From NCBI GenBank assembly GCA_020049575.1, contig JAIFKM010000048.1, forward strand, positions 1-45,028: a stretch of DNA of 45,028 bases, read 5' to 3'. This stretch comes from Desulfobulbaceae bacterium. GTDB taxonomy: Bacteria; Desulfobacterota; Desulfobulbia; Desulfobulbales; Desulfocapsaceae. Shown here in pieces: positions 32,780 through 40,550 of the stretch. The first letter of the stretch is position 1. Each line of letters starts with the position of its first letter. Below the pieces are notes generated by a model. That model saw only the letters and a list, made by a program, of their open reading frames with translations, searched no databases and was not told the origin of the DNA. Made by a program: the position numbers and the translations under genes.

Positions 32780-34004
32780 TTAGTAGCGATAATATTCAGG
32801 TTTATAGGGCCCATTGATTGGTACTCCTATATAATCAGCTTGTTCCTGGTTAAGTTGAGTAAGTACTGCACCAATTTTGCTGAGATGAAGTCTTGCCACC
32901 ATTTCGTCAAGTTCTTTCGGCAGAAAATACACCTTCCGCTCATATTTTTCTGAGTTCTGCCAAAGTTCTATCTGGGCCAGGACCTGGTTGGAGAATGAAT
33001 TACTCATAACAAAACTTGGATGACCTGTGGCGCAACCGAGATTGACGAGTCGTCCTTCGGCGAGGATTATGATTTTTTTGCCGTCTGGGAAAATGATGTG
33101 ATCAACTTGTGGTTTTATGTTTTCCCACGGTAAATCACGAATGCCAGCAATATCAATCTCCGAGTCAAAGTGTCCAATATTGCAAACTATAGATTCATTA
33201 GGCATTTTTTCCATATGTGCCCTGGTGATGACTCTCAGATTGCCAGTGCACGTTACAAAAATATTACCATAAACGGCTGCCTCGTCCATCGTCACGACTT
33301 TGTAGCCTTCCATTGCCGCTTGAAGTGCGCAGATTGGATCGATCTCGGTGACAAATACCGAGGCGCCCATACCGCGCAGGGCTTGGGCACAGCCCTTGCC
33401 TACATCCCCATAACCAACTACAACCGCTGTCGAACTTTGATTTAGTCACTGAATCATTAACATTGATAGCCGGGCATTTTAGTCGCCCATCTTTTGCCAT
33501 TTCATTGAGACGATGGACACCAGTGGTTGTTTCTTCACTGATTCCACGGATGTTTTTGAGTTCTGTGGTGTATTTCTCATGCATGACAAGAGTGAGGTCA
33601 CCCCCATCGTCGAGAATCATATTTGGCCGCCAGTTGTCTGGGCCGAAAATTGTCTGGTCAATACACCACCAGAAATCTTCCTCATTCTCACCTTTCCAGG
33701 CAAATGTTGGGATGCCGGCTGCAGCCATCGCGGCGGCCGCGTGATCCTGTGTCGAAAAAATATTACAGCTAGACCAACGGATTTCTGCGCCGAGCGCTGT
33801 GAGTGTTTCCATGAGTACAGCAGTCTGGATAGTCATATGCAGACAACCACCTATTCGTGCTCCTTTCAATGGTTGTTTGTCTGCATATTCCTTACGCAGT
33901 GCCATAAGACCAGGCATCTCTGTTTCGGCAATTTGGATCTCTTTTCGTCCCCAACTTGCAAGGGAGATATCAGCGACTTTAAAATCATCATGTTGAGTAG
34001 TCAT
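32780..34004 (-). pseudogene. ahcY: Adenosylhomocysteinase, disrupted by internal deletion/frameshift near 33434-33440
   Basis: N-terminal frame [33 protein letters not shown]...[13 protein letters not shown]-terminal frame [41 protein letters not shown]...PYKPEYYRY. The two parts sit in different frames and the intervening conserved block is absent. Confidence 0.9.
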
Positions 34005-36726: not shown

Positions 36727-39237
36727 TTATTCGGGATTGCTATGGAAGGCCCAGTTTTTTGTCGACTCTGAATAGCTATAGTACATGACCAGCTTCAAAG
36801 GACGTCCCCTGCCTTCTTCCGTACACTGAAGCTTGAAGATCAGTTTGTCTCCGGCATCTTTGATGAAGGTGATTACAGGTGAAGTGAGAGTTTCCGGTGC
36901 GGCGGCGGGATAGTTCTCGGAAAACAAGGTTTGGTAGTTGTCTTCGAGGTATTTGATCTTGTCGGCAATATACAGCTTGTCTTTGAAATCCTTGATTTTC
37001 TTGTTTGATTCTGTGAGGATTGTTTGAAATTCTTTCTCTTTTCCTGCTGGGCTCTTGTTAATTGCCTCTATTACGAGCAAGAGATTTTTCTCAGCTTCGA
37101 TCCAGTTTTCTTCCTTGACAAGCCTGTCCACTTCCTGGCGGTCTCTGATGATCGAGGCCTGAAGCATAATGCGGGTGAGTTTCTCCCTGTTCTGCTCTAA
37201 ATCTTGAGGGTTGAGCAGGCCTTGGTTATCCATGAGAATTTTGCTGGCTTTGGCATATTTCTTTATGGCCTCGTCCCACTGACCGTCAGTAAAAGCAGTT
37301 TTGCCTTCATTGATGGTTGAATAGAGTTCGGCTTTGATAATGTCCCCTTGTAGCGAACTGAGTTCTTGAGTTTCGGATTGGTCCAACTTTGCACCGAGGG
37401 CCATGGCATTCTGAAAGTGCATAAAAGCTCCTGTCCAATCAGAACCAGCGAAGAGTTCGTCACCCTTCTGCTTGAGCAGCAGGAAAATACATTTATCGAG
37501 CTGCGGCCTGATCTCAGCGCTCAAGTTCTGTTGATTCTCGACGTCAAGATTTTTCATCTCCGCAAGGGCCAGTTCGAAATTCTGGCGGGCTTGTTGCCAT
37601 GATTTCTGACTCATCGCTTCCTTGCCGTTCTGCATGAGCAGACGGGTCTTAGCCAATGAAAGCTTAGTTTGAAGTTCGGCAAGATATGTGCTTTCAGTCT
37701 TGTTATTTTTCTTGAGGGATTCGAGACCTTGTGTATACGCGTCAATGGCATTCTGCCATTTTGACGCCAACATAAATTTGTCGCCTTCTGCTACGATATC
37801 TTTTGATGATTTGAGAATATCTGCTGTGGCCTGCAGTACATATTTGCCGTCAAGCAGGACAAACCCGGCAAGTCCCTGACGCATCTCTTCTGAAGTAAGA
37901 ATAGCATCGATCTTTTGATTGAGCTCGAATCGTGCCTGTTGTTTAAAAAAGAGCACGTCCTTGGAAAGGGCTAGAGCAGAGGTACATGATTTTGAGGCTG
38001 CCTCAAATTGTTTTGCCTCCATCTGTTGATAACATTGGTTAAAAAGTTGTTCAGCTTGAGTATATTGACTATTTTCTGAGGAGTAAAAATAGGCGAGAGG
38101 TGCTGCGATGAAAAGGATAGAACAGATAATGACCACGGGAACAACATTGAATTGGCGTTTGCTTTTTTCGGTATAGAACGTAAGACCTGAAGATTTAGTA
38201 GTTTTTTTCTCCTGAACTTTTCTGTCCTTCTTTGTCTTTTCCAGGACCTTGGCACCGTTTTTGGCTTTTTCACCATCGGCCTGAACCCAATCGCCAAGAA
38301 GATCTTTGGACTGTTCTGTTCGACGGATATCGTCATGAATTTTGGGGTAGTCGCTTACCAACTCCTCTACCGCAATATATTTTTCCAGGGCCTTGCCGGG
38401 AAGCCCTTGGTGTTCAAAGGATTCTCCCTGTGAATAAATTTGTCGTGCTTCGGTGAAGACCGTTTCGATTCTCGCTGCGAGTTCTTCTTTACCTTCAAAA
38501 TCTGTCTCTGCAGGGAGATCTTTGAGGATACCTTTGAGTTGAAGAAAACGTTTTTGTCGAGACAGGAGCCAGATAGTTTCAACGTCAATGACAGGTTCTT
38601 TACTCGAACCTTCTGGAGCAAGCGGAGAAGCTTCTTCAGTTTTTCGGGCCTTTTTTTCTTCCTGTTCGATTCCAAGAAAATCAAAATCTGAAGTGAAGTC
38701 GGAGTCTTCTAACGTATCTATTTGAATCTCTTGAGTGATTGATGAAGAGAGTGATGATGTGTCGGGCTGTCTTTGAAGAGATTCCTGGCCCTTGAGTTCA
38801 GCAAAAGGGAGTTTGTCTGTGTTTTCTCGATACCAGAGGGCCGCTTCTTCGTTAAAAGTGTTTTCTTTTGAATAGATTTCCCCTGCAATCATCTTCCCTA
38901 TAAAATAAATAAGATCAGAAAGCGATCGATCATGCTCCCAGAAATCACCGAGACAGATTGCAGCTGGATCAAAGTCGGGATGAAAGAGCGGAGTTTTGGG
39001 CTTGCAACTCGGCGGGAAGTGTGGAAAACCAAAGGGAATGGTTATAGTTATAATATGGTTTGAGGTTTGTTGAATCTTGCCGGTCTCATCTTTGTAGACT
39101 CCGGTAAGAGTATAGCGGACTTCATACTGGTCAGGGGGGTCACCTTTGATCGGGGTGACCACAATAGAGGGATGCTGTGCAAAAGCCTCTCGGACTTCTT
39201 GGAAAATGTCTGCAAGCTGCTGTGTCTCTAAGCCCAT
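36727..39237 (-). CDS. E2/UBC-like domain protein with single TM segment and helical repeats
   Basis: N-terminus IPFGFPHFPPSCKPKTPLFHPDFDPAAICLGDFWEHDRSLSDLIYFIGKMIAGEIYSKENTFNEEAALWYREN resembles the E2 core (P-rich strand turn, HPx, active-site Cys, Trp, LxxLIxxI helix). TM NVVPVVIICSILFIAAPLAYFY, then TPR-like helical repeats. Confidence 0.78.
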   Translation of the reverse strand: MGLETQQLADIFQEVREAFAQHPSIVVTPIKGDPPDQYEVRYTLTGVYKDETGKIQQTSNHIITITIPFGFPHFPPSCKPKTPLFHPDFDPAAICLGDFWEHDRSLSDLIYFIGKMIAGEIYSKENTFNEEAALWYRENTDKLPFAELKGQESLQRQPDTSSLSSSITQEIQIDTLEDSDFTSDFDFLGIEQEEKKARKTEEASPLAPEGSSKEPVIDVETIWLLSRQKRFLQLKGILKDLPAETDFEGKEELAARIETVFTEARQIYSQGESFEHQGLPGKALEKYIAVEELVSDYPKIHDDIRRTEQSKDLLGDWVQADGEKAKNGAKVLEKTKKDRKVQEKKTTKSSGLTFYTEKSKRQFNVVPVVIICSILFIAAPLAYFYSSENSQYTQAEQLFNQCYQQMEAKQFEAASKSCTSALALSKDVLFFKQQARFELNQKIDAILTSEEMRQGLAGFVLLDGKYVLQATADILKSSKDIVAEGDKFMLASKWQNAIDAYTQGLESLKKNNKTESTYLAELQTKLSLAKTRLLMQNGKEAMSQKSWQQARQNFELALAEMKNLDVENQQNLSAEIRPQLDKCIFLLLKQKGDELFAGSDWTGAFMHFQNAMALGAKLDQSETQELSSLQGDIIKAELYSTINEGKTAFTDGQWDEAIKKYAKASKILMDNQGLLNPQDLEQNREKLTRIMLQASIIRDRQEVDRLVKEENWIEAEKNLLLVIEAINKSPAGKEKEFQTILTESNKKIKDFKDKLYIADKIKYLEDNYQTLFSENYPAAAPETLTSPVITFIKDAGDKLIFKLQCTEEGRGRPLKLVMYYSYSESTKNWAFHSNPE

Positions 39238-39479: not shown

Positions 39480-40550
39480 GTGGTCGATATGAAACAGTTT
39501 AAGGCAGTCTTTGAGATTGTTGAACAAAACAATTGTCCACTCTACGTGGCAGGAGAATGCCTTACTCTTTCCGATCGGGCCATTGGGTGTCCTGAAGGCA
39601 AAGAGGTGTGCCTGATATTGGTGCGTGAAATGACGGAGCTCCTTTTTGTTTTACTGAAAAAAAAATCGGTTGACGGCCAGGGTGAACAGGATCATCGACT
39701 GTATACCTGCAGTGGATGCACAGGCCTTATAAAGTTCCGTCGGGTGCGAAATTCCGTCCCGGTATCAACAACAAAAGGCCCTGCTGCTCAGATACGATCT
39801 ATAGCAAGTCTCCTCAAGGGTCGGAAGATCGACAGCCCCTTTCTTCGAGTTTTGCCTGAGAGCGTGCTTGAGAACTTTTTTAAAGCGTGTAATGAGGTGG
39901 TCATTGAAGAGAGGGGCATCCTGATTCACAAAGGAGAACCTAACCACAATCTGTATATTATCCTAGAAGGCATCCTCCTTGTAGAGGATACCCACGTTAT
40001 AATTGCCACTCTCGGAGAGGGTGAGATCTGCGGTGAAATGAGCTATCTGGGCTCTGGTGTGGCTGGTTTGACAGTGAGAGCGAAACAGGAGAGCGTGGTG
40101 CTGGCCATTCATGGTGAGGACTTCAGTCGACTACTTGGCTCAATAGCCTCGGTTCAGGTGTTCATGGCCCAACTTCTTGCCTCGAGACTGCAGAAAACTA
40201 ATGCAGCCCGAGCAAAAGAGTTTGAATCATGCATGTCTGGAAAGCTGGACGAGGTTGTCCCTGCTGAACTTTTCCAAATATTCCATATGCATCAGAAGAC
40301 TGGCGTTTTGACATTCCACTTGCAGGAGGGCGAAGGTAAAGTCTCTTTCCGGGAAGGTTGTATTATCAATGCGCACTATGGCAAGAAGGTGCATCAGGAT
40401 GCAATATTTGCTATTCTTGCTGAAAAACAAGGGGCTTACAGATTTACAGCTGGTTTGACACCTCAAGAAATGAAAGCAGCAGAAATTGGCGATTTCATGA
40501 TGCTTTTGATGGAAGGTGTAAAAAGAATAGATGAAGAGCAGACTGTCTGA
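39480..40550 (+). CDS. Cysteine-containing N-terminal domain + cyclic nucleotide-binding domain + DUF4388 (PATAN-like) protein
   Basis: LIHKGEPNHNLYIILEGILLVED...GEICGEMSYLGSGVAGLTVRAKQESVVLAI (cNMP fold), then ELFQIFHMHQKTGVLTFHLQEGEGKVSFREGCIINAHYGKKVHQDAIFAIL. Start GTG 39480 or ATG 39489. Confidence 0.82.
   Translation: MVDMKQFKAVFEIVEQNNCPLYVAGECLTLSDRAIGCPEGKEVCLILVREMTELLFVLLKKKSVDGQGEQDHRLYTCSGCTGLIKFRRVRNSVPVSTTKGPAAQIRSIASLLKGRKIDSPFLRVLPESVLENFFKACNEVVIEERGILIHKGEPNHNLYIILEGILLVEDTHVIIATLGEGEICGEMSYLGSGVAGLTVRAKQESVVLAIHGEDFSRLLGSIASVQVFMAQLLASRLQKTNAARAKEFESCMSGKLDEVVPAELFQIFHMHQKTGVLTFHLQEGEGKVSFREGCIINAHYGKKVHQDAIFAILAEKQGAYRFTAGLTPQEMKAAEIGDFMMLLMEGVKRIDEEQTV

Follow-up and report, generated by a model that had tools for sequence, protein, structure and literature searches.

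Bacterial E2 enzymes are known from operons carrying their own E1 and JAB genes, and the locus described here raises the question of what an E2-like domain does in a membrane protein encoded outside any such operon. The window, i.e., the whole stretch of DNA that was analysed, comprises 45,028 nucleotides of contig JAIFKM010000048.1 from a Desulfobulbaceae bacterium. The gene in question occupies 36727..39237 on the minus strand, where an open reading frame with an ATG start is translated into a protein of 836 aa whose architecture and synteny are common to its relatives. From the N-terminus, this protein consists of an E2 domain, a charged linker and helical segment, one transmembrane (TM) segment, TPR-like helices, and a C-terminal beta domain.

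The first 150 residues (38788..39237, minus strand) belong to the UBC (E2) fold superfamily, which is characterised by an N-terminal helix, a meander of four strands, an active-site loop, and C-terminal helices. UQ_con was their sole Pfam match up to E=10, at E=5.8e-5 and below the Pfam gathering cut-off, and NCBIfam held no model for the domain; UQ_con was also matched independently by all 70 of the 70 members of a second family alignment, the best at 2.6e-10. When the domain was compared with the PDB by phmmer, it matched UBE2C, UBE2M, and UBC9, and a profile built from 39 family members reached human UBE2C at 1.7e-8, the best 60 of its 265 matches at E<=1 being E2 entries. The AlphaFold model of the domain (pLDDT 91.5, pTM 0.87) retrieved, in a Foldseek search of the PDB, E2 enzymes or their complexes as all of its best 50 matches (probability 1.0, E 4e-7 to 5e-6). 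A chance resemblance of motifs is ruled out, because the independent UQ_con matches, the profile match to UBE2C, and the AlphaFold and Foldseek results all agree. The first-pass annotation, which had read a UBC-like core in this region and proposed structure prediction against UBC/RWD folds as its check, is therefore borne out. Its reading of the motif also holds: HPD (aa 86-88; 38974..38982, minus strand) occupies the position of the E2 HPN, and Cys95 (38953..38955, minus strand), seven residues after the Asp, falls on the catalytic Cys of UBE2C in the profile alignment, with a loop one residue shorter.

Behind the E2 domain, a charged linker and helical segment (aa 151-364; 38146..38787, minus strand), predicted from its sequence to be cytoplasmic, leads into the single TM segment (aa 365-385; 38083..38145, minus strand). 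TM calling and the positive-inside rule predict an N-in/C-out orientation, with 10 K/R versus 3 D/E in the 30 residues preceding the segment and 1 versus 4 after it. Exactly one TM call was obtained in 102 of 104 relatives, 81 of those 102 showing the positive-inside bias, and the equivalent of aa 151-364 is shorter in family f3 (TM start at ~aa 209-224) and in paralogues of ~530 aa (~aa 166-171). The TPR-like helical region (aa 386-772; 36922..38082, minus strand), predicted to be periplasmic, was recognised by Pfam TPR_2 and TPR_11, with TPR_2 at aa 643-668 reaching E=2.1e-7. It is followed by a conserved domain of four beta strands (~aa 782-836; 36730..36894, minus strand; AlphaFold pLDDT 83.7) whose fold assignment is uncertain: sequence searches gave nothing significant, and the best PDB fold match of the AlphaFold model, at E=0.02, was not significant either. 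RsiV-, PBP2a-, and NTF2-like identities were considered for this domain and set aside, their matches being too weak. A single-pass inner-membrane protein is thus predicted, with the E2 domain in the cytoplasm and the TPR and beta domains in the periplasm, in keeping with the earlier proposal of a cytoplasmic E2-like domain anchored by one TM segment and followed by TPR-like repeats.

This gene is a vertically inherited, syntenic core gene of the Desulfobulbales. Of the order's 258 genomes, 171 encode a member of the family (102 of the 149 high-quality ones), the named relatives in Desulfocapsaceae/Desulfobulbaceae including Desulfoprunum, Desulfofustis, Desulfocapsa, Desulfopila, and Desulforhopalus; when 395 genomes sampled from the phylum were searched, 12 had a match, only 2 of them outside the order. 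In the window's family, and for the most part in its sister family f12, the gene lies in conserved synteny with kdsD, HAD, CxxCxxCC, and SecDF genes. Elsewhere in the window (32780-34004, minus strand), two overlapping ORFs of 196 and 246 aa correspond to one gene of ~432 aa in syntenic relatives, the broken frame marking a pseudogene or else an error in the assembly. Most genomes carry a single copy of the E2-TPR gene. A second copy, the paralogue of ~530 aa, is found in two genera, g2 and g13, of the window's family and clusters in the tree with the f12 type. At L039:4025-8572 and L041:3825-8566, this Cys-less E2-TM-TPR paralogue (HPE, Pro95) lies directly after clpS-clpA. Near an f3 E2 locus, L035:2560-5028 encodes an FtsH-like protease of 822 aa with an extra N-terminal AAA_2 domain ahead of AAA and peptidase M41.

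The genes annotated around the window locus include no E1, ubiquitin-like, or JAB gene, in agreement with what the first reading of the sequence had reported. Likewise, none was recognised beside the gene in ~50 compared neighbourhoods, the exception being that of a distant relative in genome G586. In the window genome, which is 75.6% complete, JAB gave no match at E<=0.01 and no dedicated E1 was found; its ThiF-family proteins are one of 173 aa, above the NCBIfam cut-off for the ThiS-adenylylating ThiF, and one of 284 aa, whose best model is TcdA, below its cut-off. The genome-wide search for E1/ThiF and JAB genes proposed earlier therefore returned ThiF(ThiS)- and TcdA-like proteins but neither a dedicated E1 nor a JAB. 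Because of the incompleteness of the genome, this absence is only moderately informative, and the lack of E1 and JAB genes in orthologue neighbourhoods is the stronger evidence. Membership of a defence E1-E2 operon (CBASS Cap2, Bil, or another PADLOC system) was rejected, as the window protein had no match in PADLOC-DB and neither an E1-E2-JAB operon nor an E2-E1 fusion was present. One complete f12 genome has JAB and ThiF matches side by side at G127:C1:4362352-4365133 (L218, L234), two of them within one 785-aa frame that is a candidate JAB-E1 fusion.

Conservation of the putative active site differs between its elements. HPD, PFGFPHF, W100, and FN are near-invariant in the family, HPD being found in 87 of 87 domains of the window's clade, 14 of 16 in f12, and 2 of 5 paralogues; HPN replaces it only in the distant G586, G282, and G030 proteins. 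The window copy, with HPD, is without the HPN Asn of active E2 enzymes, a residue that matters for isopeptide formation in canonical E2s. Position 95 varies more widely: among 111 distinct domains, three of them distant, it is C in 80, R in 19, S in 3, and P in 3. Cys95 is present in 80 of the 87 domains of the window's clade, absent from all 16 of f12 (R14, A2), and absent from the five sampled paralogues (P3, R2), while separate Desulfocapsaceae lineages replace it by S, R, H, or Y. On the tree, seven changes are needed, at least five of which are forced by well-supported branches. Assembly error is unlikely as the cause, because culture-collection strains are among the Cys-less members (Desulfopila aestuarii DSM 18488 with Ser, Desulforhopalus vacuolatus DSM 9700 with His). 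Free variation of Cys95 and HPD among homologues had been named in advance as the outcome that would leave a scaffold-type fold rather than an enzyme; this variation was found for Cys95 but not for HPD.

Where Cys95 is replaced, HPD, PFGFPHF, W100, L109, N129, and A132 are kept, and Cys-less orthologues mostly retain kdsD, the other neighbours, and the divergently transcribed partner gene described below. The role of the gene thus appears to survive loss of the thiol, and because its genomic place and its other invariant residues persist without Cys95, thioester chemistry is probably not its core function. In f12, the C95-to-R switch is accompanied by a change of G97 to A with the remaining motif unchanged, a clade-specific pattern that is as expected for a surface that has been retained but retooled.

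Only one neighbour persists across families f1, f3, and f6 and most of f12, namely the divergent partner gene (39480..40550, plus strand, with a possible true start at the ATG at 39489), identified by its domain matches and conserved neighbourhood. It encodes an N-terminal four-Cys domain, a cNMP_binding domain, and a DUF4388/PATAN domain. Work on cyanobacteria has connected PATAN domains with pilus motor ATPases (PMC7690835), which makes a signalling role plausible, as a lead only. The four-Cys domain at the front of the partner (window 39486-39740, plus strand; CPxY...C...CxxC-GLIKF) contains four Cys that are invariant in the alignment; it has no NCBIfam match, and its profile finds five matches in the window genome. 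At least 116 of the 150 listed E2 loci have the partner in divergent orientation, the two domains being 140-622 bp apart. Families f12 and f6 include a shorter partner that lacks the cNMP domain, and several lineages, among them G001, G013, G015, and the Desulfofustis clade, have no partner next to the gene.

In eukaryotes, UEV and RWD domains represent a conjugating enzyme turned into a binding module. We consider it likely that the window protein has taken a comparable course and that its repurposed E2 fold gives an inner-membrane adaptor a UEV-like docking domain in the cytoplasm. Between the alternatives left by the first-pass annotation, a non-catalytic scaffold and an uncharacterised conjugation system, the scaffold is favoured, because Cys95 is replaced throughout f12 and the sampled paralogues, as well as in several separate branches of the window's own family, whereas HPD and the residues of the fold persist. 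The E2 fold would face the cytoplasm and bind a partner there, perhaps using the area that surrounds the former active-site loop, instead of carrying a ubiquitin-like protein as a thioester, and one TM helix would join it to a periplasmic TPR array ending in the small beta domain. The likeliest docked partner would be the divergently encoded four-Cys/cNMP/DUF4388 protein, and the pair might pass a cytoplasmic, perhaps cyclic-nucleotide, signal to TPR clients in the envelope, or a signal in the reverse direction. We infer the docking, the physical contact, and the direction of signalling, the interaction with the partner from gene adjacency only. A caveat to the scaffold is the retention of Cys95 in 80 of 87 domains across pairs down to ~45% identity, whereas a passive fold could do without it; in the window's clade, this residue might have an active-site, redox, or structural function.

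Catalysis is one alternative meaning of that retention. In the Cys-bearing lineages, the protein might be an active membrane-anchored E2 that receives a MoaD/ThiS/Ubl-type protein from an unlinked E1 of the ThiF/MoeB/TcdA family and modifies envelope-associated proteins, f12 having become inactive later. The position of Cys95 on the catalytic column and the almost invariant HPD fit this proposal, as do the ThiF-family proteins present in 16 of 16 genomes tested, since the MoeB/ThiF-like proteins of relatives could in principle act as E1, and the HPN- and Cys-bearing G586 relative, which lies inside an E1-E2-Prok-RING-JAB operon. We nevertheless regard it as unlikely, given that dedicated E1, Ubl, and JAB genes were not recognised in the ~50 compared neighbourhoods other than that of the distant G586 relative, that the ThiF proteins of the window genome resemble ThiF(ThiS) and TcdA, that HPD stands in place of HPN, and that the gene was retained through several separate losses of Cys95. 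Somewhat more doubtful still is the fuller version, in which a membrane-anchored E2, core to an entire family and catalytically active in Desulfocapsaceae without a dedicated operon, would use a housekeeping ThiF/MoeB-type E1 under the control of the cyclic-nucleotide/PATAN partner, with the sister family as a step towards a pseudo-E2.

The cysteine could instead be a redox- or metal-responsive sensor residue, with the four-Cys partner as its counterpart and the E2 fold as a mere chassis, which we hold to be quite improbable. In the clade, Cys78 is conserved along with Cys95 (both are present in 80 sequences, Cys78 alone in 7, and neither in 21), yet the position of Cys78 is buried in typical E2 folds, as judged from E2 alignments. 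The partner has its own four invariant Cys, and its loss accompanies that of Cys95 wherever pairs differ (about three of five independent pairs agree and none opposes); however, the median p of 0.25 reflects too few pairs for significance, two Desulfobia sequences without Cys95 keep a long partner, and Cys-bearing members without a partner also occur. Least probable is that the protein survives from, or assists, a ubiquitin-like proteolysis pathway and passes clients to AAA+ proteases. The paralogues beside clpS-clpA in two genomes, the FtsH-like double-AAA+ M41 protease near the f3 locus, and a ClpB-like gene near an f6 copy (L185) might suggest such a role, but these neighbours are lineage-specific and mutually different, the paralogues are without the Cys, and no protease belongs to the conserved context of the main gene.

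As for the origin of the adaptor, the family probably descends from bacterial E2-type conjugating enzymes, perhaps from those of conjugation operons such as the one in G586; this descent is suggested by the relationships of the G586 E2 and of a G282 protein, an E2-TPR-TM-TPR protein of 1054 aa without Cys. Of the non-orthologous relatives found, the G586 E2 is the closest (profile E=1.6e-34); this protein of 361 aa is flanked by a DnaJ/Zn-ribbon protein and a Prok-RING_1 protein. Its locus, in another family of Desulfobacterota (L186:1336-13027, G586:C35), is a ThiF/E1-JAB-FHA-Prok-RING_1-E2-DnaJ-AAA-S8 subtilase cluster with a trypsin-like gene. The operon is sporadic, as the 59 other genomes around G586 gave one weak match only, itself an orthologue from the window's order. 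In genome G030, a second E1 and an E2 (176 aa, HPN, UQ_con 1.6e-8) that is not orthologous to the window family lie at L043:3425-5355 (G030:C56), with a JAB match just downstream on the same contig.

In an order of sulfur-cycling bacteria, a canonical-type UBC fold is thus encoded by a core gene in fusion with a transmembrane TPR protein. In the open-access papers searched, we found no description of an E2-TPR family that is anchored in the membrane, inherited vertically, and encoded outside Ubl operons, and no paper combining Desulfobulbaceae with ubiquitin-conjugating; within the same literature, the four-Cys/cNMP/PATAN protein and the E2-TPR protein point to an undescribed membrane signalling pair. 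Cys-bearing and Cys-less orthologues at the same genomic place offer a natural series for the passage from conjugating enzyme to binding module. Among known systems, CBASS Cap2/Bil-type systems contain bacterial E2-type domains (PMC10097602), which the window protein shares without their E1 fusion, JAB, or Ubl. The G586 E2 is soluble, carries a zinc ribbon and HPN plus Cys, and has E1, JAB, RING, FHA, AAA, and S8 genes beside it. Inactive bacterial E2/RWD-like domains, including those of type-6e operons, were described in 2006 (PMC1779556) and provide a precedent for the scaffold; unlike UEV/RWD domains, those of type-6e included, the window family matches canonical UQ_con, is encoded away from Ubl operons, and carries TM and TPR segments in the same protein. 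With ubiquitin-conjugating enzymes (UQ_con, PF00179; nearest solved UBE2C, UBE2M, UBC9, and UbcH5), it has in common the fold, the HP(N/D) motif, the Cys position, and the FN helix region, whereas its HPD, its loop one residue shorter, its non-universal Cys, its membrane anchor with TPR and beta domains, and the lack of an E1 or ubiquitin gene nearby set it apart. Like the inactive UEV/RWD domains, for which protein binding is expected, many members keep the E2 fold without the catalytic Cys; f12 (16/16) and the paralogues (5/5) lack it, whereas the window copy still has it.
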